DNA of 14,072 nucleotides from Candidatus Eiseniibacteriota bacterium (GTDB lineage Bacteria; Arandabacterota; Arandabacteria; JAGLYR01). Of the stretch, positions 122-13,924 are shown piece after piece. The stretch's first letter is position 1, and the number at the start of each line of letters is the position of its first letter. Location of the stretch: positions 1 to 14,072 of the forward strand of contig JAGLYR010000168.1 of the NCBI GenBank assembly GCA_023132135.1, in the 5' to 3' direction. Both the position numbers and the translations under genes were made by a program. Below the pieces are notes generated by a model. That model ran no database searches, was not told the origin of the DNA, and worked only from the letters and a program-made list of their open reading frames with translations.

Positions 122-1399
122 CTACTTGATCTCTTTCATCCCATCCACGTACGGCACCAACGCCTCCGGGATCTCCACCGATCCATCCTCCCTCTGGTAG
201 TTCTCCAGGAGAGCGACGATGAGTCTGGGAAGCGCAACACCCGAACCATTGAGCGTATGAACCAACCGGGCCTTTCCTCCCCCGGCGGGTTTGTACCGGA
301 TGCCAATGCGTCTCGCCTGGAAATCCTCAAAGTTGGAACAGGAGGAAACCTCCAGCCACTTCCGCTGGGCCGGGCCCCAGAGCTCGAGATCATAGCACTT
401 GGCCGCGGCAAAACTGAGGTCGCCCGTCGACAGCATCACTACCCGGTAGGCCAGTCCCAGCCGCTGGAGCACGGTCTCCGCATTGGCTGTGAGACTCTCC
501 AGTTCATCATAGGAATCCTCGGGCCGCACGAACTTTACGAGTTCCACTTTTTCGAACTGGTGGACCCGTACCATGCCGCGGGTTTCTTTCCCGTGTGCCC
601 CCGCTTCCCGTCGGAAGCAGGCTGTGTGCGCAACGTACTGGATCGGTAGATCCCTCTCCGCCAGTGTTTCATTCCGATGAAGGTTCGTTACGGGGACTTC
701 GGCCGTGGGAATCAGAAACAGATCATCCACCTCACAGAAGTACATATCCTCTTCCAGCTTGGGCAACTGCCCCGTGCCAAACATGGTCTCCCGGTTGGCC
801 AGGTAAGGTGGAGCAACCTCCACGTACCCGTGTTCCCGGACATGAAGATCCAGCATGAACTGGACCAGTGCCCGCTGGAGTCTGGCCCCTCTCCCTTTCA
901 GCAGAGCGAAACCGCTCCCGGCCACGTTGGAAGCCGCCTGGAAGTCCATGAGTCCCAATCCATCCCCCAGTTCCCAGTGCGGCAGCGGCTCAAACGGGAA
1001 AGTCGGCCGCTCCCCCCACGTGCGCACCGTCTGGTTGGCTGACTCATCCACTCCAACCGGGACGCTTGGGTGAGGAATATTCGGAATGCGGATCTCGATC
1101 TCGTGCAGAGCTTCATCAATTCCCTTGAGTGCCTCGTCCAGGTCCGTGATCTCGTCGGACACCTTCCTCATCTCGCGGATACGGGTCTCGGCTTCCTCCT
1201 GCTCGCCCGAGGCCTTGAGACGCCCAATCTCCTGGGACACATCGTTCCGCTGCTTCTTCAGAGTATCGACCTTGACCAGCAGGGCGCGGCGCTGCTCGTC
1301 CCGCCGGAGCAGCTCGTCCAGATCCGCGGACTCGTTCTTGTCCGACATCGCTTTCTTTACCAGATCAGGATTCCCGCGCACGAACTTCCTGTCGAGCAT
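122..1399 (-). CDS. serS: Seryl-tRNA synthetase
   Basis: Class II aminoacyl-tRNA synthetase that charges tRNA-Ser in the cytoplasm. The 425-residue length is normal for the bacterial enzyme. Residues about 1-105 form the charged, Glu/Lys/Arg-rich antiparallel coiled-coil arm that binds the long variable arm of tRNA-Ser. The catalytic core follows: PTAEVP at 231-236, motif 2 starting FRREAGAHGKETRG at 262-275, the ELWGPAQRKWLEVSSCSNFEDFQARR stretch near 339-364 (given here by its ends and key residues E350, S352-S355), and motif 3 NGSGVALPR at 384-392. The ATG at 1397-1399 has a GGGGAG Shine-Dalgarno 9 bases upstream, inside the end of the preceding HemC-like gene. Only 6 bases separate the two genes, so translation is probably coupled. 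No missing residue or frameshift seen. Confidence 0.98.
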   Translation of the reverse strand: MLDRKFVRGNPDLVKKAMSDKNESADLDELLRRDEQRRALLVKVDTLKKQRNDVSQEIGRLKASGEQEEAETRIREMRKVSDEITDLDEALKGIDEALHEIEIRIPNIPHPSVPVGVDESANQTVRTWGERPTFPFEPLPHWELGDGLGLMDFQAASNVAGSGFALLKGRGARLQRALVQFMLDLHVREHGYVEVAPPYLANRETMFGTGQLPKLEEDMYFCEVDDLFLIPTAEVPVTNLHRNETLAERDLPIQYVAHTACFRREAGAHGKETRGMVRVHQFEKVELVKFVRPEDSYDELESLTANAETVLQRLGLAYRVVMLSTGDLSFAAAKCYDLELWGPAQRKWLEVSSCSNFEDFQARRIGIRYKPAGGGKARLVHTLNGSGVALPRLIVALLENYQREDGSVEIPEALVPYVDGMKEIK

Positions 1400-1447
1400 C
1401 GGACTCTACTCCCCGGTGGTGGATGAACTGGAAGATTCTTGCACGCT
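1397..1447 (-). promoter_or_regulatory. Serine-codon run overlapping serS translation start
   Basis: Just before the serS start codon the upstream gene ends with the codons AGC GTG CAA GAA TCT TCC AGT TCA TCC ACC ACC GGG GAG TAG (shown codon by codon). Five consecutive serines use four different codons, and the GGG GAG codons are themselves the serS Shine-Dalgarno (1409-1414). A ribosome slowed on these codons would sit directly over, or just upstream of, that site. A TCCGGT/ACCGGG pairing (about 1452-1457 with 1412-1417) could also enclose the serine codons in a loop. The codons and spacing are observed; a regulatory role is inference. Confidence 0.3.
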
Positions 1448-2371
1448 CCGACCGGATTTGCGACCCCGGCGAAACAGCGAACCGGCGCCATCTTCGCGCA
1501 ACTTCTCGGCCAAATCTTTTCCCACGTTGGTTGCCGAATCCATGTCTCCTCCCAATGAATCCCTCACCACTTCTTTCCCGTCGGAGCTCCACACACCCGC
1601 CTCAAGATTCAATACCCGCCCGGAGACTTCCGCCAGGGCCCCGAGCAATCCATCGAGACCATTCATCTCCCCCAAGAGCGCTCTCTCAGCATCAACCGCC
1701 GAGTGCGTGCTCGGGTCATCCAGGCCGGCAAGCCATTTCTCACGCGCCTTGCTTTCAGTGGTGCAAACCAGAGCGAATGCTCCACGTCCCACAGGAGGCA
1801 GGAATCGCGCACTGTCCAGGACTTCGTTGACGGCGTTCTGCCATCCCTGAAGCTCCAGGTACGCCACCGGTGCAATGAGGCCGTCCAGACGACCGGCCCG
1901 GACCCGCTTCACGCTGGCGTCCAGTGTTTCGTGGAGCATCGTGATGTTGAGATCCGGTCGATGGTTCAAGAGCTGAAATCGGCACAGCTCATCCACGACA
2001 CCCACTCGACCCCGGGCCGGAATGTCGTCCAGGAGACTTCCCCTGTGTGACACCAAGGCCTGATAGGGAGCCAGCCGTTCACACACTGCGGCAACCTCCA
2101 GGCCCGGAGCAAGACACACCGGCACATCTTCGACCGCGGCCAGAACTGCATCCACCGATCCGGCCTTCAGGACATGAAAAGGACAACCGGGCACTCGCTT
2201 TCCACCTTTCCTGGAAGACCCGCCCCGAGCCGGGCGCACCTCCACGGCCAGCCTGGGATAGAGCATCTCCAGCTGTTCAGTAATCGTCCGGGCAAGGGCG
2301 AGAACCAGGGGCGAGGGTTCACACACGAGTATCAACCCATCCGACGCTTTTGCTTCTCTGGACTGGTTCAT
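1406..2371 (-). CDS. HemC-like protein lacking catalytic and cofactor residues
   Basis: A 321-residue protein, close to the usual length of hydroxymethylbilane synthase (porphobilinogen deaminase), which aligns with it by eye along its whole length. Family landmarks are SPLVL at 20-24, GGK at 56-58, DVP at 82-84, GLEVAAV near 90-96, RVG...QLL..RPDL at 122-141, PPVGRGAFAL at 192-201, AERALL at 228-233 and GALAEV at 244-249. Key residues are changed (E. coli numbering): R11 to E18, K83 to E81, R131/R132 to L129/C130, R149 to H147, R155 to S153. The cofactor-carrying C242 is replaced by L239 or D240, with no Cys after 203. D84 is kept (D82). It therefore probably does not make hydroxymethylbilane. 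The C-terminus is a basic, Ser-rich tail (301-321). An upstream TTG at 2464 would add 31 residues with no family match; ATG at 2371 is preferred, although its ribosome-binding site is weak. Confidence 0.75.
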   Translation of the reverse strand: MNQSREAKASDGLILVCEPSPLVLALARTITEQLEMLYPRLAVEVRPARGGSSRKGGKRVPGCPFHVLKAGSVDAVLAAVEDVPVCLAPGLEVAAVCERLAPYQALVSHRGSLLDDIPARGRVGVVDELCRFQLLNHRPDLNITMLHETLDASVKRVRAGRLDGLIAPVAYLELQGWQNAVNEVLDSARFLPPVGRGAFALVCTTESKAREKWLAGLDDPSTHSAVDAERALLGEMNGLDGLLGALAEVSGRVLNLEAGVWSSDGKEVVRDSLGGDMDSATNVGKDLAEKLREDGAGSLFRRGRKSGRSVQESSSSSTTGE

Positions 2372-2498
2372 CTTATGCAGACACAAACCTGAGGTGGGTT
2401 CGAAGAAATGGACAAAGGAATCACCAACACCTGTGACACCGCAATCATCGCGAGCGAGTGTCAACCTAGCATGGAGGGGAAAGACAAGTCAACCCTTC
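2372..2498 (-). promoter_or_regulatory. Spacer with weak promoter-like elements before HemC-like gene
   Basis: On the minus strand, TTGACT at 2487-2492 is followed, after 18 bases, by TAGGTT at 2463-2468. The -35 match is good and the -10 match poor (3 of 6). A transcript from here would begin near 2456, which would rule out the TTG at 2464 and favour the ATG at 2371. A second TTGACA at 2459-2464 has no convincing -10 partner. Weak evidence. Confidence 0.25.
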
Positions 2499-2551
2499 TA
2501 GCCTGGGTTATTCATGAATCCCGGGCAGGGATTCATGAATAATCCAGGCTA
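2499..2551. repeat. Palindromic repeat, copy 1
   Basis: Two 24-base arms (2499-2522 and 2528-2551) pair completely around a GGGCA loop, with one G-T wobble (2507 with 2543). The arm begins TAGCCTGG and ends GAATCC(C). On the minus strand the first three bases of the element, TAG at 2551-2549, are the stop codon of the WecA-like gene. There is no T-run on either side, so a classical intrinsic terminator is unlikely, although such a strong hairpin could stabilise or separate mRNA segments. It shares its outer 8 bases, inner 6 bases and total arm length with the copy at 13877-13924. Confidence 0.9.
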
Positions 2552-3556
2552 AGAGCGCTGCACCGGCACCCCGCTCAACAGACGCCCCAGCCAGAACAAG
2601 CCCAGAGCGACGGCAGGTCCAATGATCAGGGCGCTCGTCAGGGTCAGACGGCAACACAGGAGAACACCACACAGGGCGAGGCCGGCGCAGAGCCCATAGA
2701 TGATCCATACCGAGCCCCGGGGCGAGGCAATCAGGGAAGCCAGCCGGTGGGAGGAGTGGTCCTTGCCCGGCTCACAGATCCCGCGCCCATCAAGCCACCG
2801 GGTCATGGTCACCAGACTGATGTCAAAGATGGGATAGCCCAGAATCAGGACGGGAACCAGCATGAAGAGATGGGAGCTCTGGTGCCAGGTGGACATGAGG
2901 CCCACCGACGCCATCACATATCCCATGAACATGGCACCCGCATCGCCCAGGAAAATCGAGGCCGGGTTGAAGTTGAATCGGAGAAAAGCCAAGCTGGCTC
3001 CGGCTGCCGCTGCGGCAAGCACAGCCGTCATCATCTGACCATGAAACACGCAGATCACCAGAAAAGCGCACGAGGCGATGAATGTAATCCCGCTGGAGAT
3101 CCCATCCATGTTGTCCAGGAAGTTGAAAGCGTTGATAAGTCCTACCACCCAGAGCAGGGACAGCGAAATGTCCATCCAGCCGTTGGTGATCAGACCGTTG
3201 GTATTGCCTGCGAACAGAAGCAGCAGCCCGGCGGCCAGCTGCCCGCACAGCTTGGTGGTTGGCGACAATCCTACCCGGTCATCCACCAGTCCGATCAGGA
3301 ACACCAGGAGGCCACCACCCAGGAACCCCAGAAGGCGAGGCGTGATGGGTTCCCGAAGCAGATACATCCCCATCGCCATGGCCCCCAGGAAACCCACAAG
3401 CACCGAAAGACCACCCAGGAGAGGTGTCGGCCGCCGGTGCGCTTTGCGCTGCGACGGCACATCCACAAAACCGGTCTTTCGCGCGAGGAATCTCACAAGC
3501 GGGGTCGTGAGAAGCACCACAAAGAACGCTACTGAAAACGCCACCAAGTAGTCCAT
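2549..3556 (-). CDS. WecA/TagO/MraY-family polyprenyl-phosphate phosphosugar transferase
   Basis: Multi-pass inner-membrane enzyme predicted to transfer a UDP-sugar phosphate (usually GlcNAc-1-P) to undecaprenyl phosphate, the first step of a lipid-linked glycan. From the ATG at 3556 it has 335 residues and roughly ten hydrophobic segments. Family motifs are RKAHRRPTPLLGG at 37-49, the Mg-binding GLVDD at 89-93, NAFNFLDNMDGISSG at 142-156, FLGDAGAMF at 202-210 and the cytoplasmic GKDHSSHRL at 264-272. NFLDNMDG and the DHxxHRL form point to the WecA/TagO branch rather than MraY. A GTG at 3604 would add 16 basic residues; the ATG is preferred because the first membrane segment then begins at residue 3, as usual. 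The C-terminus ends exactly at the TAG that opens a palindromic repeat, so the repeat may have set the end of the protein. Confidence 0.93.
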   Translation of the reverse strand: MDYLVAFSVAFFVVLLTTPLVRFLARKTGFVDVPSQRKAHRRPTPLLGGLSVLVGFLGAMAMGMYLLREPITPRLLGFLGGGLLVFLIGLVDDRVGLSPTTKLCGQLAAGLLLLFAGNTNGLITNGWMDISLSLLWVVGLINAFNFLDNMDGISSGITFIASCAFLVICVFHGQMMTAVLAAAAAGASLAFLRFNFNPASIFLGDAGAMFMGYVMASVGLMSTWHQSSHLFMLVPVLILGYPIFDISLVTMTRWLDGRGICEPGKDHSSHRLASLIASPRGSVWIIYGLCAGLALCGVLLCCRLTLTSALIIGPAVALGLFWLGRLLSGVPVQRS

Positions 3557-3634
3557 ACCCAGAACCAAGCACCTCTCGCACAAAGTGGAAAGCCGCCGCC
3601 TCACCCACCCGCTATTCCCGGTCCAGCTTCCGCC

Positions 3635-3724: not shown

Positions 3725-4684
3725 CTATGCCTCGAAGTAGCGAATCACACTCTCAAGGATCTCGTCAAGACTGACTTCGGGTCTGTACTTGATCAGTTCC
3801 CGGATTTTCTTGAGATCCGGAACTCTTCGCCGCATGTCCTGGAACCCCTGCTCGTAGGCCTTCTCGTAGGGAATGTGGTCAATTGTCGAGGAACTCCCCG
3901 TCATTTTCTTGATCTTGCCAGCCAGATCCTCGATAGCAATTTCGCTCTCGCTTCCCACGTTGAAGATCTCGCCCACGGCAGCGTCGTGCTCCGCCAGGTC
4001 CAGAACGGCCCGCACCACATCCGCTACAGCGGTGAAACACCGGGTCTGCTTGCCATCCCCGTAGATTGTGATGGGATTGCCCAGGAGGCACTGCTTCACG
4101 AATCTGGGAATGACCATCCCGTATTGTCCGGTCTGCCTCGGACCGCATGTGTTGAAACAACGGACGATGACCATGGGCAGCTTTTTCTCACGATGGTAGG
4201 CCAGAGCCAGGATCTCATCAATGGCCTTGGCGGCCGCGTAGCTCCAGCGGTTGATGGTGGTAGGTCCCAGCAGCCGGTCATGCTCTTCATGGAAAGGAAG
4301 AGAATTCGCCTTGCCGTAGACCTCCGATGATGAGAAGAGCACAACCTTCGTCTTCTGACGATTGGCCACATCCAGAACGATCTCTGTCCCCCGGATGTTG
4401 ATCTGGAGTGCTTTCAGCATGTTCTCGATAACGTACTTGACGCCAACCGCCGCAGCCAGATGGAAAATGACATCCACGCCGTCTGCCAGACGAGCCATCA
4501 CTTCTTCGTCGAGAATCGTGTCAATGGTATACTGGAAACCGGGATGGTCCTCCAAGTGAGCAATGTTATCGAAGCTCCCGGTCGAGAGATCATCAATGAC
4601 GCTCACTTCCGCCCCACGCTTTAACAAACCCTCAACCAGGTGCGACCCAATGAACCCGGCCCCTCCTGTCACCAACGCTCTCAT
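3725..4684 (-). CDS. NAD-dependent nucleotide-sugar epimerase/decarboxylase (extended SDR)
   Basis: Cytoplasmic extended short-chain dehydrogenase acting on a nucleotide sugar. From the ATG at 4684 it has 319 residues. It shows the Rossmann TGGAGFIG at 6-13, HLAA at 75-78, SSSEVYG at 118-124, the catalytic Y149xxxK153 (SYAAAK), and RCFNTCGPRQTGQYG at 175-189. The RW(S)Y..K and GDGKQTRCFT pattern resembles the UDP-glucuronate decarboxylase domain of ArnA as well as UDP-sugar 4-epimerases, so the substrate is not settled. AGGAAGG lies 11 bases upstream of this ATG; a TTG at 4714 is less likely. The acyltransferase gene ends 36 bases upstream, suggesting one operon with it and the oxidoreductase. 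It differs clearly from the uxs and rmlB products in the same window, so it is not a recent duplicate of either. Confidence 0.88.
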   Translation of the reverse strand: MRALVTGGAGFIGSHLVEGLLKRGAEVSVIDDLSTGSFDNIAHLEDHPGFQYTIDTILDEEVMARLADGVDVIFHLAAAVGVKYVIENMLKALQINIRGTEIVLDVANRQKTKVVLFSSSEVYGKANSLPFHEEHDRLLGPTTINRWSYAAAKAIDEILALAYHREKKLPMVIVRCFNTCGPRQTGQYGMVIPRFVKQCLLGNPITIYGDGKQTRCFTAVADVVRAVLDLAEHDAAVGEIFNVGSESEIAIEDLAGKIKKMTGSSSTIDHIPYEKAYEQGFQDMRRRVPDLKKIRELIKYRPEVSLDEILESVIRYFEA

Positions 4685-4720
4685 CTCAACAACCGCCTTC
4701 CTCACCCGCTCCAAGCCGGA

Positions 4721-5464
4721 CTACTTGCTATCGGGTAAACGCTGCTCCACAGGAGTATCACGTATCTCTCTGGCCGGGACCCCGAAGTACACCTTGCGCG
4801 CCGGGATATCCCTCACCGCCACAGCTCCGGCCCCCACGACTGCGTCTTCCCCGATCACCACACCGGGCAGAAGCACCGCGCCCGCCCCGATCCTCGCCCC
4901 TCGTTTCAGGTGGGGTCCCTTCGTGTGCTTGAACCGCTCTTCGGTTCGGCCCAGGAAGTTGTCGTTCGACGTCACCACCATCGGGGCCACGAAACAGAGA
5001 TCCTCAATAACAGATCGGGCCGTAATGTAACAACCCGTCTCCAGCTTCACCTTCGAACCCACTTCGCACAGATTCTCGATGGCCACGCCACGCCCCACAA
5101 TGGTCGCGTCCCCCACTGTGACATTCTCGCGAATTGTCGCCAGATCCGCGACCAGGGTTTTCTTTCCCAGCCTGCAGCCGGCGTAGATCACGACGGAGGT
5201 CCCGATCATGCAACCGTCCCCGATCTCGGCCGGGGGGAGGGAATCTTCCACTTCAAGGGTGCTCAAGGCTGCACGCATCGGCTGCTTGCCAATGACCACG
5301 TTGTCGTCAATCCGGACGCCTGTGCCGATCCTCGTTCCCCTGTTCAGAACTACGTTGTGCCCGACGACAGTGTTGTCACCCACAACGACACTCGCTTCGA
5401 CCAGCGTGTTTTCCCCCAGTTGTACTCCCTTACCCAATCGGGCTGTCGGATCCACGCCTGTCAT
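4721..5464 (-). CDS. Left-handed beta-helix (hexapeptide) acyltransferase, WbpD/WlbB-like
   Basis: Predicted trimeric cytoplasmic acyltransferase of 247 residues, built of hexapeptide repeats ([LIV]GxxxxX) over about 5-60 and 79-215, with a charged loop near 60-78. The C-terminal part resembles UDP-3-amino-sugar N-acetyltransferases of the WbpD/WlbB group: CFVAPMVVTSNDNFLGR at 157-173, GARIGAGAVLLPGVVIG at 189-205, VGAGAVAVRDIPA at 210-222 and GVPAR at 228-232. Start at ATG 5464 is chosen because GGAGGT lies 9 bases upstream; a TTG at 5518 would overlap the preceding gene and has no such support. Its neighbour upstream is a Gfo/Idh/MocA oxidoreductase, as in WbpB/WbpD-type pathways. It is longer than WbpD, with extra N-terminal coils, so the substrate could differ. 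Confidence 0.88.
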   Translation of the reverse strand: MTGVDPTARLGKGVQLGENTLVEASVVVGDNTVVGHNVVLNRGTRIGTGVRIDDNVVIGKQPMRAALSTLEVEDSLPPAEIGDGCMIGTSVVIYAGCRLGKKTLVADLATIRENVTVGDATIVGRGVAIENLCEVGSKVKLETGCYITARSVIEDLCFVAPMVVTSNDNFLGRTEERFKHTKGPHLKRGARIGAGAVLLPGVVIGEDAVVGAGAVAVRDIPARKVYFGVPAREIRDTPVEQRLPDSK

Positions 5465-5510
5465 TACCGGAATACCTCCGCGACAGAAATCTTGGCGGTC
5501 TCGGACACCG

Positions 5511-6518
5511 CTATTCAATCATGACCCGGCTGCCGTGCCCCTTCATGGACTCATCTGCAGCCTCGAGGACCCTCAGCACGCGCAACCCGTCTTCGCCGCC
5601 GGTGAGAGGCGCCTCCCCGTTGTTAACGCAGCTCAGGAAGTGCTGGCACTCAACCCTGAGAGGTTCCAGCAGATCCAGCTTCGGGATCCAGATATCTCCC
5701 ACCCGAATTGTGAGAGACTCCCCGTAGTCCCCGTATGAGGGGGTGTAGCTCACGCCCTTGTCGTAGACGCGGACCTTTTCCGTTACCTCGGTGTCGTCCA
5801 GAACAGCCATTTTCTTGCTCCCGACGACAGTGGTCCTCCGGACCTTGTGCGGATCCAGCCAACTGACGTGGATATGGGCCACCACTTCTTCCGGGAACTC
5901 GAGAACGATGAAACCAACATCCTCAACCCCCTCGCGCAGGTAGGACCGCCCCACCGCCACCACCGAGGTCGGCATCGCCCCAACCAGGTAGAGGACCACG
6001 GAAATATCGTGGGGGGCAAAGCTCCAGAGCGCGTTTTCAGTGCGGCGAACCTTCCCGAGGTTGACCCGGGTGCAGTACAGATAGTGGAGCTTCCCCAGAC
6101 TCCCGTCTTCCAGGTAGCCCCTGAGCGCCTGGTATGCCCCGTGGTACCTCAGAAGGTGTCCCACCATGAGAATGCGGTCATTCTTCTCCGCCAGATCCAC
6201 CATCTCTTTCCCCTGGACATGCGACATGGCCAAGGGCTTCTCGACCAGAAGATGCTTGCCGGCCGCCAGAACCTCCGAACCAATAGCATGGTGAGTGTCG
6301 GAGGATGTGGCCACCACGACCGCTTCCAGCTCCGAATCGTTCAGGAGATCGCCATAGTCCGTGGTCAGCTTGAGATGTGGGTAGATCTTGGAAATCTTGT
6401 CGAAGCGCGACGCGTCCTTGTCGCAAACCCACTTCAGCGAGGCTTCCGGCAGTTCATCCAGGACCCGGACGAAGTTCGGACCCCAGTATCCAACACCGAC
6501 TACACCAACCGTTGCCAC
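5511..6518 (-). CDS. Gfo/Idh/MocA-family NAD(P)-dependent sugar oxidoreductase
   Basis: A 335-residue cytoplasmic oxidoreductase. The N-terminal Rossmann fold shows GVVGVGYWGPN at 5-15 and an acidic D33 after strand 2, which favours NAD. The family lysine is in VEKPLA at 92-97 (K94), followed by GHLLRYHGAY at 120-129 and APHDISV at 168-174 (H170, D171), the usual catalytic region. A likely role is oxidation of a nucleotide sugar at C3, as in WbpB/WlbA, given the WbpD-like acyltransferase 46 bases downstream; this is inferred from context. The GTG start at 6518 has AAAGGAG 8 bases upstream. It opens a three-gene unit after a 123-base gap. No aminotransferase, the expected partner between the oxidation and acylation steps, is present here. 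Confidence 0.92.
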   Translation of the reverse strand: MATVGVVGVGYWGPNFVRVLDELPEASLKWVCDKDASRFDKISKIYPHLKLTTDYGDLLNDSELEAVVVATSSDTHHAIGSEVLAAGKHLLVEKPLAMSHVQGKEMVDLAEKNDRILMVGHLLRYHGAYQALRGYLEDGSLGKLHYLYCTRVNLGKVRRTENALWSFAPHDISVVLYLVGAMPTSVVAVGRSYLREGVEDVGFIVLEFPEEVVAHIHVSWLDPHKVRRTTVVGSKKMAVLDDTEVTEKVRVYDKGVSYTPSYGDYGESLTIRVGDIWIPKLDLLEPLRVECQHFLSCVNNGEAPLTGGEDGLRVLRVLEAADESMKGHGSRVMIE

Positions 6519-6641
6519 TCAATGCACTCCTTTTCGAGTCTATCTTCCAGTCTCTGAAACACCATGCGGGGCATGGTACGTCAAGGCCCCTTCCACTTCA
6601 AGCAAAAGCGTAGCGAAAACCGGACCGTATTTCTCACCGGG
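6519..6641 (-). promoter_or_regulatory. Intergenic gap with TTGACG box and a 7-bp inverted repeat
   Basis: This 123-base gap separates the export gene from the oxidoreductase gene. On the minus strand TTGACG (6579-6584) is followed at once by a perfect inverted repeat ACCATGC-CCC-GCATGGT (6577-6561), placed where a promoter spacer or operator would lie. No good -10 box follows at 16-18 bases (TGTTTC at 17), so a promoter here is uncertain. I see no clear terminator for the upstream gene. Confidence 0.3.
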
Positions 6642-8282
6642 CTAATTACCCATCGCACTGTCGACGACGAGATACACGGTTGCCAGTTCCGCCAGCACCC
6701 TCGCAACATCCTTGAACAGCTCCCACCACTCGATCTCACGCTTTTCCGGAATCCAGATAGTGTCCCCGGGCTCCAGGCTATCGACATCCCCGGGCCATTT
6801 CCACTCTCCGGAGCGAACCCTGATCACACGGGTCTTGCCCCGATTCGCATTCCAGGAGTATCCGCCCGCCTGCTCGATGTAGTAGTCCACCCCTCTATCC
6901 GGAACATGGATAACATGCCCGGGCGAAGCCACCTGCCCTTCCACCGCGACGGTCAGGGGCTTGTGCGGAATGTTGACCACATCCAGGTTTCGCAAGATCA
7001 GATCATGACTCGAGTCGTTTTCCAGAAACAGCTTTTCGAAATCCACAACCATCTGCCCGCGCCGCTCACGCGACCGGAACTTGAAGTACTCGTACTCTGT
7101 CTTGGTCATGTCCACCACAGGCATGTTCTTCAGACGCTCGAACTCCCGGTCGATAACTGTATCCCGTTCAGCCCTCACCACCGTCGCCTCGCGAAGCGCC
7201 GCAAAGGGAGTGAACCCACCCGCTCGTTTCACTATGTGCGACAGCAATTCCAGGTTCTCTTCGATCGCGTACCAGCCGGGATACTGAACCTCGCCGGTGA
7301 CGAGGACGGCATGTTCTTCGTGCCACTTCGGAATAGACCGGAGGAACACGCGGTCCCCGTCCTTGAGCACCTGCGCCCCATCGACTGACCGCCCCTCCCT
7401 GTATCCCGTCAGATTCAGGAACAGGCGCTCTGTATCCGAAGGATCGGTATCCGAGAACCGTTCAATTTCAACACTCTGGAGGAAAGCCCCGGGCTCGGGG
7501 CCGCCGGCCAGGGCAATCAGGTCCGCAACCGTCTCTCCCGACCGCAGTTCAATCAGTCCGGGCCGGAAAACGGCCCCCAGAATCCGGACAGCCCGCTCCA
7601 TTGGCGGGACGTGAACGACGTCGCCCTCACGCAGGAGGGGGTTGTTCTCCAGGCAGCCCGAAACCTCGTAGGCAACCAGATCCACCGGGACAACACCACC
7701 GCCGGACCGCAGAAGCGCGATATTCCGCCTGGAACCAATGGCCGCCACGCCCTCGGCCATTTCGATGATTCCGGCCACTCTCTCGACCGCTGTGGCCACG
7801 TACACGCCCGGGGAGCTGACCTCTCCCAGGACATGGACCCGGAACCGACGGACGTCCACGAGTTGCAGTCGGACAAGCGTGTTCCGCAGAAAACCCGACA
7901 GAGCACGGCGAACCGTCTCCTCTGCCGCTTCCACACTCAGGCCGCAGACCTGCACGGGCCCCGCCGGATCCAGGAAAACCATTCCCTCCGGGCTCACATC
8001 AAGTGTCCTTACCTCTACCCGTTCACCCGACAGCCAGAGAGCCAGCCGGTCCCCGGGCCCCAGCCGGTAGGTGGCCCGATCGATCTTGCCTTCCAACGGC
8101 GTGATGCCCGGTCCGGATTGTCCCCCGGTCTCAGGCGCGGTCTGTTCCGGCAACCAGTCCGGGAAATCCGTCTGGGCAGATACCCTCGCGGGCCCTCCCC
8201 CAACCGCACCCAGGATGAGACACAGGGCGCAAAGGCCGGCGGCCACTGTTCTGTTGAGGAACAGGACATCACGCTTGGACAT
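6642..8282 (-). CDS. SLBB-domain polysaccharide export protein (Wza-related)
   Basis: Envelope protein expected to form or join the outer-membrane/periplasmic channel for a surface polysaccharide. It has 546 residues. The N-terminus has a signal peptide (KR, a hydrophobic stretch about 12-29, likely cleavage after VSA at 34-36) but no lipobox cysteine, unlike Wza. A Poly_export domain begins at YRLGPGDRL (72-80), followed by four SLBB-like repeats at about 149-180 (VLGEVSSPGVY), 231-262 (ILGAVFRPGLI), 325-358 (VTGEVQYPGWY) and 443-475 (VEGQVASPGHV). A C-terminal hydrophobic or amphipathic segment at about 522-542 may be the membrane-crossing helix. The ATG is directly adjacent to the stop of uxs, with GGGGAG just upstream, so the two are in one operon. 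No Wzc-type kinase gene accompanies it here. Confidence 0.92.
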   Translation of the reverse strand: MSKRDVLFLNRTVAAGLCALCLILGAVGGGPARVSAQTDFPDWLPEQTAPETGGQSGPGITPLEGKIDRATYRLGPGDRLALWLSGERVEVRTLDVSPEGMVFLDPAGPVQVCGLSVEAAEETVRRALSGFLRNTLVRLQLVDVRRFRVHVLGEVSSPGVYVATAVERVAGIIEMAEGVAAIGSRRNIALLRSGGGVVPVDLVAYEVSGCLENNPLLREGDVVHVPPMERAVRILGAVFRPGLIELRSGETVADLIALAGGPEPGAFLQSVEIERFSDTDPSDTERLFLNLTGYREGRSVDGAQVLKDGDRVFLRSIPKWHEEHAVLVTGEVQYPGWYAIEENLELLSHIVKRAGGFTPFAALREATVVRAERDTVIDREFERLKNMPVVDMTKTEYEYFKFRSRERRGQMVVDFEKLFLENDSSHDLILRNLDVVNIPHKPLTVAVEGQVASPGHVIHVPDRGVDYYIEQAGGYSWNANRGKTRVIRVRSGEWKWPGDVDSLEPGDTIWIPEKREIEWWELFKDVARVLAELATVYLVVDSAMGN

Positions 8283-9215
8283 CTATTCTCCCCGAGTCCT
8301 GAAATCCTTGATGGTTTTCTCCAACCCCTCGCGCAACGACACCCCGGGCTCCCAACCCAGAAGGTCCTTCGCCCGAGAGATGTCCGGCTGGCGAATCCTG
8401 GGATCGTCTTCCGGCAACTGCTCATGCACAAGGGCGCTGCCGGAACCTGTCAGGTCCAGAATTTCCCGAGCCAGCTCCAGGACCGTCCGTTCCGATGGAT
8501 TTCCCAGGTTCACCGGCTCAACCGTATCCGAAGTGAACAGCCGGTAGAGCCCCTCCACCAGATCGGCCACGTAGCAGAAGCTGCGCGTCTGTGCCCCGTC
8601 CCCGAACACCGTGAGAGGTTCGCCGGCCAGGGCCTGGCGGATGAAGGTCGGTACAACCCGGCCGTCCCGCGCCCGCATCCGGGGACCATAGGTGTTGAAA
8701 ATCCGGGCGATCCGGGTATCCACCGCATGGAACCTGTGGTACGCGAAGGTCATGGCCTCGCCAAACCGCTTGGCCTCGTCATACACACCGCGAGGACCAA
8801 TGGGATTGACATGCCCCCAGTACGATTCCACCTGCGGGTGGACGGCTGGATCGCCGTACACCTCCGACGATGACGCCAGAACAAACCGGGCTCCCTTTTC
8901 CTTGGCCAGTCCCAGCGCCTTGTGCGTTCCCATCGCACCTACTTTCAGAGTCTGAATCGGAAGATCCAGGTAGTCGATGGGACTTGCGGGCGACGCAAAA
9001 TGGAGCACACCGTCCAGCGGCCCTGAGATGAAAATGTACTCCGTCACATCATGCTTGACGAACTTGAAACGCTCGTGACCAGCCAGATGCTCGATGTTCC
9101 GGATCGACCCGGTAATCAGGTTGTCCAGCCCAACAATCTCATGCCCCTTACTGAGGAAGAAATCGCAGAGATGGGATCCAAGAAACCCCGCGGCCCCTGT
9201 AACCAGAATGCGCAT
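8283..9215 (-). CDS. uxs: UDP-glucuronate decarboxylase (UDP-xylose synthase)
   Basis: Extended SDR that converts UDP-glucuronate to UDP-xylose with a bound NAD. It has 310 residues, the usual length for bacterial UXS. Diagnostic pieces: TGAAGFLG at 6-13, [12 protein letters not shown] at 72-83, SSSEVYGDP at 115-123, [18 protein letters not shown] at 126-143, catalytic Y145xxxK149 (YDEAK), [10 protein letters not shown] at 171-180 and [12 protein letters not shown] at 205-216. The SPASP and [11 protein letters not shown] blocks separate UXS from RmlB and GalE. The start ATG shares one base with the stop of rmlB (TGATG), a sign of translational coupling. Its substrate would be supplied by Ugd, encoded three genes upstream in the same unit, which makes UDP-xylose a well-supported product. 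Confidence 0.95.
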
Positions 9216-10240
9216 CAGCTTTTCCCCATTCCGCGCTTTTCCCTATAGTGTTTCCGGTAGTACTCCTCGAATTCACCCGACCGGATTTTCCGCCACCACT
9301 CCTCGTTGTCCCGGTACCAATCAACTGTCTGTCGCATTCCCTCATCGATCCCCACTTCCGGGGCCCACCCGAGGGACTTCCGGATCCGCTCCGTGCTCAC
9401 GGCGTGACGCAGAACATGACCCGGGCGATCTTCCACCATTTGAATCCGGTCCTCCGCCAGACCCAAGGTCTCCAGGATAGACCGGGCCATCTCCAGGATG
9501 CTGAACTCATCGCCCGTGCCGATGTTGTAGACACGCTCGTCCAGGCTGTCGGCAAGCAAAATGGTCTCCAATGCCCTGCAGTGATCCTCTACGAAAATCC
9601 AGTCCCGTGTGTTCCTGCCCGATCCGTAGACCGGGAGTCCTTCGCCCACAAGCGCGTTGGTGATGAAAAGGGGAACCATTTTCTCGGGATACTGGCGGGG
9701 TCCGTAGTTGTTGGTGCAGCGCGTGATGAACACGGGCATTCCGTAAGTGACCCAGTACGAAAAAGCCAGCCGATCGCCTCCGGTTTTTGAGGCTGCATAG
9801 GGCGACTTGGGCTCCAACGTCGAGTCCTCACGGCAGGGTTCGTCGTGTGCCTCTCCGTACACCTCGTCCGTGGACACATGGACAAACCGGTGCAGGCCAT
9901 GGGCCCGGGCGCATTCCAGGAGCACGTACACACCGTACATGTCGGTCATCACGAAGCTCCCCGCCTCTTCGATAGACCGGTCCACGTGCGTCTCCGCCGC
10001 GAAGTTGATGACCAGATCGCACTCCCGGATCAGGGGTTCCACCACCGAACGCTCGCAGATGTCCCCGTGGACAAAACGGAACCGGGGACTGCCTTCCAGC
10101 TCCCTCAGGTTGTCCAGGGTCCCAGCGTAGGTAAGCTTGTCGATCACAACCAAGTCCCAGTCCGGATGGTTCCTGGCCATGTGGTGGGTAAAGTTGCTGC
10201 CGATAAACCCGGCACCGCCCGTGATCAGTAGATTGGCCAT
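9215..10240 (-). CDS. rmlB: dTDP-glucose 4,6-dehydratase
   Basis: Extended SDR that makes dTDP-4-keto-6-deoxyglucose. From the ATG at 10240 it has 341 residues. Markers are [11 protein letters not shown] at 7-17, [12 protein letters not shown] at 34-45, [10 protein letters not shown] at 81-90, the catalytic T124-D125-E126 in [11 protein letters not shown]148xxxK152 (SPYAASK), [14 protein letters not shown] at 174-187 and [16 protein letters not shown] at 207-222. The usual RPGHD-RRYAID segment is changed to [11 protein letters not shown] at 272-282, a mild departure. AGGGG about 8 bases upstream supports this start; an ATG at 10279 has no ribosome-binding site. It lies 47 bases after the cupin gene and overlaps uxs. 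The dTDP-glucose synthase (rmlA) and dTDP-rhamnose reductase (rmlD) genes are not in this window. Confidence 0.95.
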
Positions 10241-10287
10241 CGCATTTCCCCTGTCTGTGCCGTGAACAGACCTATGCATAGAACGGG

Positions 10288-10743
10288 CTAACCGTCTTGC
10301 CGCTCCCAGGAATACGGGATCTCGCCCGAATGCGGATCGACCCGGTACTCATCGGGCTGATCATGGTTGTATGGACGCGTCGGGCAGTTGATAAGGAACC
10401 CGGGTTCCACACTTATGCCTTTCACCCCATGCACAACCAGTGGCGGGATCTTGACCAGCATCAGATTGTCCTCGCCCATGAAGAACTCGTTGATCTCACC
10501 GCGGGTTGGGGAATCATCACGCTGATCAAAGAGAACCACCTTCAGCATGCCCTTGATCACGCAGAAGTGATCGGTCTGGAGTTTGTGGTAATGCCAGCCC
10601 TTGACCACTCCCGGATAGGCCACCGAAACATAGACCTGCCCGAATTGCTCGAATATTTCCTCGTCGGATCGCAGGATCTCGGCCAGCCATCCGCGCTCGT
10701 CGTGATGTGCGATCAGTTTCTTGGTCTTGACACCGTCGATCAT
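10288..10743 (-). CDS. RmlC-family cupin, dTDP-4-dehydrorhamnose 3,5-epimerase-like
   Basis: A 151-residue cupin from the ATG at 10743, which has GAGGGAG 3 bases or so upstream in the 14-base gap after ugd. It shows DERGWLAEILRSD at 15-27, the histidine block GWHYHKLQTDHFCVIKG at 49-65 (H51 matching the catalytic His of RmlC GxHxQ), GEINEFFMGE at 82-91, IPPLVVHGVKG at 99-109 and PTRPYNHDQPDEYRVDPH at 121-138. It is shorter than classical RmlC (about 180 residues) and belongs to a short COG1898 type of uncertain exact reaction. With rmlB next downstream, isomerisation of a dTDP-4-keto-6-deoxy sugar is the natural guess. A longer reading from 10830 would overlap ugd and is not favoured. Confidence 0.85.
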   Translation of the reverse strand: MIDGVKTKKLIAHHDERGWLAEILRSDEEIFEQFGQVYVSVAYPGVVKGWHYHKLQTDHFCVIKGMLKVVLFDQRDDSPTRGEINEFFMGEDNLMLVKIPPLVVHGVKGISVEPGFLINCPTRPYNHDQPDEYRVDPHSGEIPYSWERQDG

Positions 10744-10757
10744 TGCTCCCTCACTGG

Positions 10758-12062
10758 CTATGGTCGCCCCACACTCGCATACCGGAACCCGAGAGCCCGA
10801 ACGCTTTCGGGTTCGTACACGTTCCTGCAATCCACCAGGGCGGGGGTCCGCATCTGTTCTTTCATCCGCCCAAGATCCAGCTCCCGGAACTCATTCCAGT
10901 CCGTGACCAGGACCACGCAATCGGCGTCCTTCCCTGCCTCGTACGGATCGGCGGCAGTCTCCAGATCCGGCAGGATTTTCCTGGACTCTTCCATTGCCTC
11001 GGGGTCGAAAGCCACAATGTCGACGCCGAGGTCCCGAAGCCCCCGGATCAGCGTCAGCGAAGGCGCCTCCCGCATGTCATCGGTCTGCGGTTTGAAGGCC
11101 AGACCGAGAACGGCCACCCGCTTGCCCCTGGGATTCCCGAGGACCGTCGCCACCTTCTCTATCATGCGCTGCTTCTGCCGGTCGTTGACCCGCATCACGG
11201 CCTTGACGATCTCGGCACGGGCGCCGTGGGACTCAGCTGCCTGGATCAGGGCCCTAACGTCCTTGGGAAAGCAGGATCCCCCGTAGCCCGCACCAGCCTG
11301 CAGGAACTTCGATCCGATACGGGAATCCAGTCCCATCGCCTTGGCGACCACGGTTACGTCCGCCCCCAGGGACTCGCAAATCCCGGCCATCTCATTGACG
11401 AAGGAGATCTTCGTTGCCAGGAAAGCGTTGGAGGCATACTTGATCATCTCCGCAGACCTAACGGTCGTTCTCACCAAGGGCACGCCCAGCAGCGTCAGGG
11501 GGCGGTAGATCTCCGCCAGAACGTTCGTGGCCCGCTCGTTGGCTGCCCCGATCACAATCCGGTCGGGCTTCATGAAATCCTCGATGGCGGACCCCTCCCG
11601 CAGGAACTCAGGATTGGACACCACGTCGAACTCGATGGGCTCCTTCTGGGAGTCCCGGATCCACCCCTCGACCAAGCCGCCGGTTCCACAGGGCACTGTG
11701 CTCTTGGAAACGACCACCTTGTATCCGTTCATGGCCCGCCCGATGGAACGGGCCACCTCTTCCACCTGGCTCAGATCCGCATCCCCCTCATAGGTGGACG
11801 GGGTTCCAACCGCGATGAAAATCACCTCGGAATCCCGGATCGCGCCCTCAACCTCTGTTGTGAACTTGAGCCTGCCGCGCTGGGCGTTGATCCGCACGAA
11901 CTCGGCCAACCCGGGTTCAAAGAAGGGAACCTCAAAGCGCTTCAGGGATTCGATCTTCTTCTCGTCCACATCGACGTTGATAACCTGGTTGCCGAAATCC
12001 GCCAGACAGGCCCCGGTTACGAGACCCACGTAACCGGTTCCCATCACGCTGACATTGTGCAT
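10758..12062 (-). CDS. ugd: UDP-glucose 6-dehydrogenase
   Basis: Four-electron NAD-dependent oxidation of UDP-glucose to UDP-glucuronate. The protein has 434 residues from the ATG at 12062, preceded by AGGAGGAG at 9 bases, the strongest ribosome-binding site in the window; an earlier start at 12101 is therefore rejected. It shows the Rossmann GTGYVG at 8-13, VGTPS at 85-89, STVPCGTG at 121-128, NPEFLREG at 150-157, the catalytic cysteine C264 in GYGGSCFPKD (259-268), and a C-terminal second Rossmann domain with VAVLGLAFKPQTDDMREAPS at 316-335. It is the first gene of the unit that ends with the export protein and provides the substrate of Uxs. A promoter and a stable 5' hairpin precede it. 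Confidence 0.97.
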   Translation of the reverse strand: MHNVSVMGTGYVGLVTGACLADFGNQVINVDVDEKKIESLKRFEVPFFEPGLAEFVRINAQRGRLKFTTEVEGAIRDSEVIFIAVGTPSTYEGDADLSQVEEVARSIGRAMNGYKVVVSKSTVPCGTGGLVEGWIRDSQKEPIEFDVVSNPEFLREGSAIEDFMKPDRIVIGAANERATNVLAEIYRPLTLLGVPLVRTTVRSAEMIKYASNAFLATKISFVNEMAGICESLGADVTVVAKAMGLDSRIGSKFLQAGAGYGGSCFPKDVRALIQAAESHGARAEIVKAVMRVNDRQKQRMIEKVATVLGNPRGKRVAVLGLAFKPQTDDMREAPSLTLIRGLRDLGVDIVAFDPEAMEESRKILPDLETAADPYEAGKDADCVVLVTDWNEFRELDLGRMKEQMRTPALVDCRNVYEPESVRALGFRYASVGRP

Positions 12063-12080
12063 GGAACAGATCTCCTCCTG

Positions 12081-12120
12081 CCGGGTCCACCGGCAAAGCA
12101 AGACCCGGTGGCCGACCCGG
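12081..12120 (-). promoter_or_regulatory. 5'-UTR hairpin before ugd
   Basis: On the minus strand, CCGGGT (12120-12115) and CCACCGG (12111-12105) pair with CCGGTGG (12093-12087) and ACCCGG (12086-12081), giving 13 base pairs with a CGG bulge and an 11-base loop. The foot of the stem lies next to the AGGAGGAG ribosome-binding site (12072-12079). A second copy of CCGGGTC within the element could pair with the same 3' GACCCGG in an alternative, weaker fold. The structure is seen in sequence; any regulatory role is inferred. Confidence 0.5.
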
Positions 12121-12201: not shown

Positions 12202-13863
12202 TTATGGAAACCGCACCCGGCAGATATCCCACCAGTCCGACGTCTGCACCTCCACGAAGTACATCCCGCTCGCTTCCATCCCCGTCTCCGACGGATCCCA
12301 ACGCAGCATATGTCTACCCACCTCTGGAAACCGGGTTTCCCTCTCCCAGACCGTATTGCCCGACAGATCGCGGACGCGGACTTGCACCAATCCGGGGTGG
12401 GCAATCTGGACCTCGATCTCGGCGACTGTGTTTCCCGCCGTTCCTTCCGCCACCCGGACGGTGATACCCGGGACTCGCTCGAGATCCAGAGGAAAATCCG
12501 TGTAGAGGTCGGCCATGAGGGCACCCTCAAACATCTTCAGATCCCGGACCGCTACTCCGGTGCGCTCGCCTTCGTAGTTGTGGGGCGCCGGGCTAGAGAA
12601 GTCGTCGAAATCCTGCGCCACGAAACGGTTGCCGCCCAGTGTCACCCAGAGGTCATTGGCCTCCGCAGGGAGTCCGGCCTCCAGCTCGCACAGACCATCC
12701 GCCTGTTCGACAGCTACCCGAGCATGGAGAGCGCTCGGACCGCAGGACACGAAGCGGTTGTCCGGCACGCGTTCGTCGACGTGGTATATGAGCACACCTT
12801 CTCCGGGCACACGCTGGTCAAATCGCTTGCGCCAGCGACACTCCACCATAAAGTACTCGGGGCCCGGAATGCCACCGGGGTAGAGCCGGAACACGGGCGG
12901 TGGCAGCAGGCCGCAGCCCAAATCGGTCTTGAGGCGCTCTCCCGTCACGTCAACGGGCGTGGCGAACCCCAGGTGAACTCGCGAGTAGGCATCCATCAGG
13001 GAAGGAGTGTCCCCGCTGCCCCCCGCCCACATCCCGGAGCTCATCAGGGACCATGTCCCGAGTCCGGACGATCCGTAGCTCGGATCCCCCAGATCCGGAG
13101 CGCCCAGAATGCGAGCAATCTCGTAGGCGAGGAGCCCTACAGGTGCAGTCACCGGCGCTACGACGTAGTGGCTTACCTTGACCCCTCCCACTTCCACCGG
13201 AGCCGGGAGTTTGCCCGAATGCGACCAGAGATTCCCGAGCTCGCCGGTGGACTCCATCCCCCGGCTTGAATGGATCACCACGAGAACATCCACCACACCA
13301 TCGCCCTCACCGGCCTCCCGCCCAAAGGCATCGAACTTCCCAAAGGGCACATCCCGGGCTGCGGCCAAGGCGTCCTCCACCAGCTTATGCGAGTTCTGCG
13401 GATACTGCCCCAGTCCGGCCCGCCCCGCGGCATAGTACGCGAGTTCCTGCGGGAGATCGAACCACCCGAATACACTCCCCTCCACATTCAGCGCTCCATC
13501 GGAGTTCACGGCGTAGAAGGCCGCAACGCTTCTCCCCTTCTTCCCCGTTCCCTTGAAGAGAGTCTGCTCGAATTTCTCGAGAGGATAGGCAGACATGCCC
13601 GCGCGGTTCGGGAAGGACACCAGCAGAGCCACCAGGCGCAGGGTAACCGAGGGTCGACCGGCGGTGATCACCGCGCCCCCCACAGGAAGATCGCCCATTC
13701 CCAGCGCCCCTCCCTCCTTTACTAGCTCAATCCACGCGTCCAGTCTCTCGTACTCGACAAGTTTCTCCGCGATGCGGGGTTCGAGGGGAACGGAGAGAGT
13801 TGTGGAGGCGAAGATCAGCAGGAGAAGTGAAACAGCGGGAATCAGGATTCGAATCGGGCCCAT
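12202..13863 (-). CDS. Secreted M6-peptidase-like protein with degenerate zinc site
   Basis: A 553-residue protein with a signal peptide (R5, hydrophobic 6-24). Residues about 73-300 resemble the M6 (immune inhibitor A-type) metalloprotease domain: LVSFPN at 81-86, GSVFGWFDLP at 129-138, YPQNSHKLVEDA at 154-165, DGVVDVLVVIHSS at 188-200, NLWSHSGKLP at 211-220 and the Met-turn WSLMSSGMW at 271-279. The expected HExxHxxGxPD site reads Y247-E248-I-A-R251-I-L-G254-A-P-D257, so both zinc-binding histidines are gone while Glu, Gly and Asp remain. The last 65 residues form a FlgD-Ig/type IX-sorting-like domain (VRVRDLSGNTVW at 495-506, RWD at 521-523, ASGMYFVEV at 531-539). The ATG has only a GGGGG stretch upstream. 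Probably an inactive, surface or secreted relative. Confidence 0.85.
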   Translation of the reverse strand: MGPIRILIPAVSLLLLIFASTTLSVPLEPRIAEKLVEYERLDAWIELVKEGGALGMGDLPVGGAVITAGRPSVTLRLVALLVSFPNRAGMSAYPLEKFEQTLFKGTGKKGRSVAAFYAVNSDGALNVEGSVFGWFDLPQELAYYAAGRAGLGQYPQNSHKLVEDALAAARDVPFGKFDAFGREAGEGDGVVDVLVVIHSSRGMESTGELGNLWSHSGKLPAPVEVGGVKVSHYVVAPVTAPVGLLAYEIARILGAPDLGDPSYGSSGLGTWSLMSSGMWAGGSGDTPSLMDAYSRVHLGFATPVDVTGERLKTDLGCGLLPPPVFRLYPGGIPGPEYFMVECRWRKRFDQRVPGEGVLIYHVDERVPDNRFVSCGPSALHARVAVEQADGLCELEAGLPAEANDLWVTLGGNRFVAQDFDDFSSPAPHNYEGERTGVAVRDLKMFEGALMADLYTDFPLDLERVPGITVRVAEGTAGNTVAEIEVQIAHPGLVQVRVRDLSGNTVWERETRFPEVGRHMLRWDPSETGMEASGMYFVEVQTSDWWDICRVRFP

Positions 13864-13876
13864 CGGAAGTACCCCC

Positions 13877-13924
13877 TAGCCTGGACTGTATGCGAATCCG
13901 GATGGATTCGCATACAGTCCAGGC
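13877..13924. repeat. Palindromic repeat, copy 2
   Basis: Perfect 21-base arms (13879-13899 and 13904-13924) around a GGAT loop, preceded by TA to give the same TAGCCTGG opening as copy 1. Its middle nine bases differ at seven positions from copy 1, yet the opposite arm changes to match, so pairing is kept. It lies 14 bases upstream of the M6-like start codon and would be in or near that gene's leader. Confidence 0.92.

Follow-up and report, generated by a model that had tools for sequence, protein, structure and literature searches.

HemC, which acts in tetrapyrrole synthesis, is a universal and highly conserved enzyme, and its gene is usually taken as a sign of the pathway. The window studied here, a stretch of 14,072 nucleotides that makes up an entire 14-kb contig of a 3.4-Mb, 345-contig assembly (96.4% complete, 0.42% contaminated), raises the question of what a HemC homologue may be doing when the residues that HemC needs for catalysis are gone and its neighbours are genes for a lipid-carrier glycosyltransferase and a seryl-tRNA synthetase. 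An earlier note, made from the sequence alone, suggested a maintained protein with a repurposed fold, perhaps a ligand binder or regulator. We use HemC*, a name coined in this analysis, for the family to which the window protein belongs. The features of the window are collected in Table 1.

Table 1. Features of the window, with positions counted from its first nucleotide.
Feature	Position	Strand	Basis or remark
serS (seryl-tRNA synthetase)	122..1399	-	Pfam; starts 6 bases past the HemC* stop
HemC* (predicted HemC fold, active site lost), 321 aa	1406..2371	-	Open reading frame, Pfam, NCBIfam, PDB match, model
Hairpin between wecA and HemC*, ~23-bp stem, no U tract	2499..2551	-	MFE -39.9, z -7.4
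WecA-type polyprenyl-phosphate sugar-1-phosphate transferase (PF00953), the gene next upstream of HemC*	2549..3604	-	Pfam
NAD-dependent sugar epimerase/dehydratase	3725..4714	-	Pfam; 56-59% identity to L188/L189/L190
Sugar-nucleotide and export cluster	3725..12101	-	Includes UGD
UDP-sugar 6-dehydrogenase (UGD), recurrent upstream gene at HemC* loci	10758..12101	-	Locus comparison
M6-family metalloprotease, FlgD-like C-terminal end	12202..13863	-	Match to the T9SS type A sorting domain, below threshold

Homology, fold and active site of the window protein

The frame of the window HemC*, 321 codons and a stop, is intact at the position that the earlier note gave for it, with the strand corrected to minus; its start is the ATG at 2371, an in-frame TTG upstream at 2464 also being possible. 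The protein matches Pfam PF01379 (E 2.5e-18) and PF03900 (E 1.1e-7), both above the Pfam cut-offs, and its match to the hemC equivalog model TIGR00212 (E 4.8e-32), at 111 bits, falls below the 164-bit cut-off of that model. In the PDB it matches E. coli HemC best (6e-26, residues 15-299), and its identity to canonical HemCs is 25-33%. An AlphaFold2 model (pLDDT 90, pTM 0.87) superposes on E. coli HemC with a Z of 35 and 2.1-2.2 Å over ~290 residues, and on the E. coli and human enzymes with Z values of 33-35 across ~280-300 residues. The input alignment for the model consisted of canonical HemCs, so that the fold is partly an input; the homology seen in the sequence is by itself enough to imply this fold. 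The profile search and superposition that the earlier note had suggested as checks thus gave a highly significant HemC match and a close structural fit. Its statement that the sequence follows HemC from end to end is not quite exact, in that eight residues are deleted from the mobile active-site loop (E. coli ~42-60, the K55/K59 region).

In HemC, C242 carries the dipyrromethane cofactor and D84 is the catalytic aspartate. Alignment to E. coli HemC agrees with the losses first described for the window protein: the position of C242 is occupied by leucine, and R11 is replaced by E, K83 by E, R131 by L, R132 by C, R149 by H, R155 by S and R176 by L, with further changes at T127 (V), S129 (D) and Q198 (R). 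D84 (D82 in the window protein), S13 and G199 are kept. None of the nine basic ligand residues (R11, K55, K59, K83, R131, R132, R149, R155 and R176) is retained, the placement of K55 and K59 varying with the alignment because of the loop deletion. Mutations of R11, R149, R155 and R176 are documented as detrimental, R131L and R132L as affecting cofactor binding, and K55Q and K59Q as affecting activity (PMC3945110). Judged by its sequence, the window protein is a full-length HemC homologue that has lost the catalytic site.

Nor does the host appear to have an evident use for HemC. No match to HemA, HemB or HemD was obtained in the window genome, control genomes being positive, or in seven other genomes of the same class, and a second HemC homologue, the presence of which the earlier note had wished to see checked, was not found in the window genome. 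No close orthologue of the window HemC* was found, and a contig scan with the window protein alone gave no match. The matches listed by a further contig scan, which used an alignment and a single active-site motif, were canonical HemCs, and these loci supplied the alignment for the model.

The HemC* family and its retention

The altered protein is not confined to the window. In a set of 98 genomes from many bacterial families we found two further HemC copies without the active site (in G073 and G032), each of which adjoins polysaccharide genes. Profile searches of the respective phyla gave HemC* in 5/5 genomes for that of G073; for that of G032, 70 of the 80 genomes had matches, and many of these had two copies. 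In total there are ~70 relatives in three phylum-level groups, a count that applies to the genomes searched, many of the assemblies being fragmented, and is not a census. A HemC* profile was also run on 386 genomes, and none of the 30 best loci read added a member. Beyond what the earlier note had proposed, HemC* is thus a widespread family, and the genome that carries the window copy is one without the tetrapyrrole pathway.

When 20 catalytic or ligand positions were read in 229 distinct aligned homologues, their retention was bimodal. The HemC* class (~71 of the 229) keeps 2-10 of the 20 residues, with Cys242 in none, and the canonical class, two truncated canonical fragments excepted, keeps 14-20. 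The mean net charge of the nine basic active-site positions is +1.5 in HemC* vs +8.4 in canonical HemC. The loss is thus not peculiar to the window copy, a doubt that the earlier note had itself raised, as the cysteine and most of the arginines are likewise missing from relatives with the same gene neighbourhood. HemC* has in addition acquired conserved residues of its own: Glu is found at E. coli position 175 in 69/69 HemC* compared with 13/153 canonical sequences, and at position 185 in 69/69 compared with 66/153; Gln occupies position 180 in 62/69 HemC*. In the window protein these three positions are E173, E183 and Q178, respectively.

It may be asked whether such residues mark a new enzyme of the operon, whose active site would be the conserved acidic residues and whose chemistry might, for example, concern sugar nucleotides or lipid carriers. 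The glutamates at 175, 185 and 231 are invariant in HemC*, R101 and P104 (E. coli numbering) are invariant or nearly so, and the neighbouring genes, described below, mostly encode biosynthetic enzymes. R101 and E231 are, however, equally conserved in canonical HemC, and so are probably structural; moreover, the old pocket varies widely among HemC* subgroups and no catalytic motif was recognised. We consider a new enzyme rather unlikely.

Three sequences call for separate mention. L168 and L169 were considered as odd members and rejected, since most of their residues are kept and their ends are cut or diverged. L302 (G311; 1483-2391, minus strand), which has Asp for Cys242, Tyr for D84 and Glu for R149, was rejected as HemC* because it nests inside canonical HemC; it is an independent HemC paralogue that arose in a separate event, and no polysaccharide genes were seen within 1.5 kb on either side of it.

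In a tree of 36 HemC* (the window sequence included) and 36 canonical sequences, one branch splits HemC* from canonical HemC with an SH-aLRT value of 99, which is 92 when the active-site regions are removed, both values being from short searches without bootstraps. A single origin of HemC* would be the simplest reading of these results. Where exactly the window sequence belongs within HemC* is unsure, as its branch is long (1.9). Pairwise dN/dS values (Nei-Gojobori) for the closest HemC* pairs, those from the families f28, f261 and f264 included, are 0.059-0.25; for some more distant pairs the values are higher or saturated, up to ~0.5, and are less certain. By this measure the family is under purifying selection, and we infer selection on the window copy from these family pairs.

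Retention of HemC* is seen also where the preceding enzyme gene is lacking. In the G032 phylum, HemB was not found in the families f259 (4 genomes), f261 (20), f262 (5) and f263 (1), in which HemC* was verified by its residues in 4, 15, 1 and 1 genomes, respectively; at least 21 genomes of this phylum, in addition to that of the window, hence carry HemC* without HemB. As a separate observation, two genomes (G018, locus L162; G029, locus L163) have a canonical-looking HemC and no HemB match; they may possibly use another route to porphobilinogen, or HemB may have been missed in them.

The absence of HemA, HemB and HemD from the window genome, together with the fast evolution of the window sequence, as seen from its branch length, is what might be expected of a decaying hemC remnant left after loss of the heme pathway. 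The frame is intact, however, the altered family occurs with the same neighbours in ~70 genomes, dN/dS is low in the relatives and the new invariant residues are present in the window copy; in addition, canonical HemC coexists with HemC*, being encoded elsewhere in many genomes of f28, f260, f264 and the G073 phylum. For the family as a whole decay is already refuted, and for the window copy we regard it as very improbable. The intact frames across ~70 genomes and the low dN/dS of the closest pairs uphold the view of the earlier note that the protein is maintained rather than decayed.

No separate HemC* model was among the matches from Pfam or NCBIfam. Two HemC* (L262, 79-1020, minus strand, and L229, 3950-4888, plus strand) pass the hemC equivalog cut-off with 210 and 166 bits against 164, and the genome carrying L262 has no HemB match. 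Any HemC* that passes this cut-off would be annotated as hydroxymethylbilane synthase, and inference of the pathway from it would be misled; databases probably hold some HemC* under the wrong name. Our literature searches, in which coverage of subscription journals was partial, found no description of a HemC pseudoenzyme or paralogue, or of hemC with serS and wecA. As far as we found, the family is new, with a known fold in a new use.

Gene order around HemC*

Neighbourhoods were counted at 54 HemC* loci and 17 more. The conserved orders are Wzx-WecA-HemC*-SerS-histidine kinase-PorX or UGD-DegT-HemC*: a WecA-type transferase lies upstream of HemC* at ~33 loci, where a Wzx-like flippase frequently precedes it, and a DegT aminotransferase following UGD at ~30, with the f28 group having DegT/UGD, not WecA, next to HemC*. 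In ~25 loci serS is directly downstream, mostly within 40 bases or overlapping, although the overlaps are approximate as some ends are those of stop-to-stop frames. The location between a lipid-carrier transferase and serS, to which the earlier note drew attention, hence reflects linkage to wecA and serS that is conserved across HemC* loci. In other genomes serS is followed by a histidine kinase and then by a response regulator with a PglZ domain, which meets the NCBIfam PorX model in the three of three cases tested (524-638 bits against a cut-off of 300); the kinase and PorX assignments come from Pfam and NCBIfam, and the kinase gave no match to a PorY model. The phylum of G073 shows the order WecA-HemC*-kinase-PorX, with serS absent. 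At the 10 canonical HemC loci examined, none of the WecA, DegT, UGD, SerS, kinase and PorX neighbours was present.

In G214 (L181, 334-2379, plus strand), WecA and HemC* form a single uninterrupted frame of 682 codons. Apparent fusions of DegT with HemC* were rejected, as on our reading of the translations the long frames overlap out of frame; only the WecA-HemC* of G214 is in frame. The single frame and the gene order both point to WecA, and a role of HemC* on or with WecA may thus be proposed.

The window itself has the order UGD, epimerases, WecA, HemC*, serS and contig end, the last of which falls 121 bases past serS, short of where the kinase and PorX would stand. The cluster upstream of wecA encodes epimerases, an acetyltransferase-like protein, a Gfo/Idh-like oxidoreductase, an EpsE-like export protein, an RmlB-like dehydratase and UGD, and the G073 phylum has a relative of the epimerase/dehydratase nearest to wecA on the upstream side of WecA-HemC*. 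The M6 metalloprotease, given its predicted C-terminal features, would fit a type IX secretion context. Since a strong hairpin separates them, wecA and HemC* of the window may not share a transcript. A second hairpin, at 13879-13924 beside the protease gene, is similar in design, both being long and near-perfect with GCCTGGA at the stem base and without a U tract; the two are possibly terminator-like elements of the window lineage.

The presence of the same gene order in other phyla, on a contig that is just a small part of a fragmented assembly, might raise the suspicion of wrong binning or of an assembly artefact. The window SerS, however, shares 60-62% identity with those of class relatives and no more than 55% with others, and the contig correlates at 0.948 in tetranucleotide profile with another contig of the same genome. 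On these two grounds the contig belongs to the window genome, and an error of this type is extremely improbable.

The PorX association also bears on the possibility that HemC* senses tetrapyrrole or heme status and feeds this to the kinase-PorX system. Such a role would accord with the HemC ancestry of the protein, with the sharing of an operon with PorX, and with the report that PorX/PorY of P. gingivalis is stimulated by hemin (PMC8050853). Against it, the arginines that bind propionate and acetate groups are lost, the heme pathway is absent from many HemC* carriers, and no PorX was seen beside HemC* in f28 or f260; we think a heme sensor quite improbable.

Proposed role of HemC*

That HemC* is conserved and is not a hydroxymethylbilane synthase is well supported. 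HemC* shares with HemC (TIGR00212; PF01379 and PF03900) the fold, the domain order and the structural residues R101, E231, G199 and P194, but differs in the absence of Cys242 and of the cofactor- and substrate-binding arginines, in the shortened active-site loop of the window copy, in having no tetrapyrrole gene neighbours and in being kept without HemB. As the HemC residues needed for them are lost, cofactor carriage and porphobilinogen binding are likely lacking. Our preferred reading, to which we give a probability of roughly 0.45, is tentative and draws on homology and gene order: HemC* would be a non-catalytic HemC-fold protein that either regulates WecA-dependent surface-polysaccharide synthesis by binding a ligand or is a partner in it.

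Domains 1 and 2 of HemC form a two-lobed cleft that resembles those of binding proteins, the third being the C-terminal domain, and folds of the periplasmic-binding-protein (PBP) type II widely serve as ligand sensors. After the HemCs, PBP-like domains are the next structural group matched by the model; type II domains, including the LysR effector domain and the EvgS/BvgS sensor domains, superpose on lobes 1 and 2 of HemC* with Z ~10-11, but are only ~10-17% identical in the alignments and lack the third HemC domain. HemC* keeps the three-domain architecture of two PBP-like lobes and a C-terminal domain, with a cleft that has lost the positive charges holding polyanionic pyrrole chains. This stripped cleft, with the newly invariant Glu beside the old R176 position, might accommodate another small ligand or a protein partner.

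WecA is the type of enzyme that initiates a lipid-linked glycan. WecA-type transferases are the immediate upstream partners of HemC* and in one case share its frame, and we know of no protein of the HemC fold that partners WecA. No signal peptide was seen in HemC*. The protein is probably a cytoplasmic subunit, regulatory or accessory, of the lipid-carrier glycosyltransferase of the WecA type and would adjust the start of surface-polysaccharide synthesis to a metabolite, perhaps coordinated with PorX, the two-component system of type IX secretion. Both its fusion to wecA and its sharing of an operon with the kinase and PorX would fit the ligand binder or regulator first suggested for the window protein. 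HemC* is no known component of PorX/PorY signalling, the link to which lies in the PorX-model response regulator that adjoins HemC* loci in other genomes, the accompanying kinase being without a PorY-model match. A more ambitious proposal, that HemC* is a ligand-sensing subunit coupling WecA, seryl-tRNA synthetase and PorX, such that surface glycan supply is linked to type IX secretion, is possible though unlikely; if it were true, no earlier case of the HemC fold in a non-catalytic use would be known.

The existence of a large non-catalytic branch indicates that the HemC fold has been reused. The conserved gene order yields a testable prediction about how poorly known phyla control their surface polysaccharide and PorX-type secretion signalling.

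HemC* is dispensable to the system, because in two class relatives of the window genome (G001 and G004) serS directly follows a WecA-type gene and nothing HemC-like separates them. What does lie between the wecA-type gene and serS in these two genomes (L038, L042) is a short ORF of ~120 aa on the reverse strand, which is conserved and whose start resembles a signal peptide.
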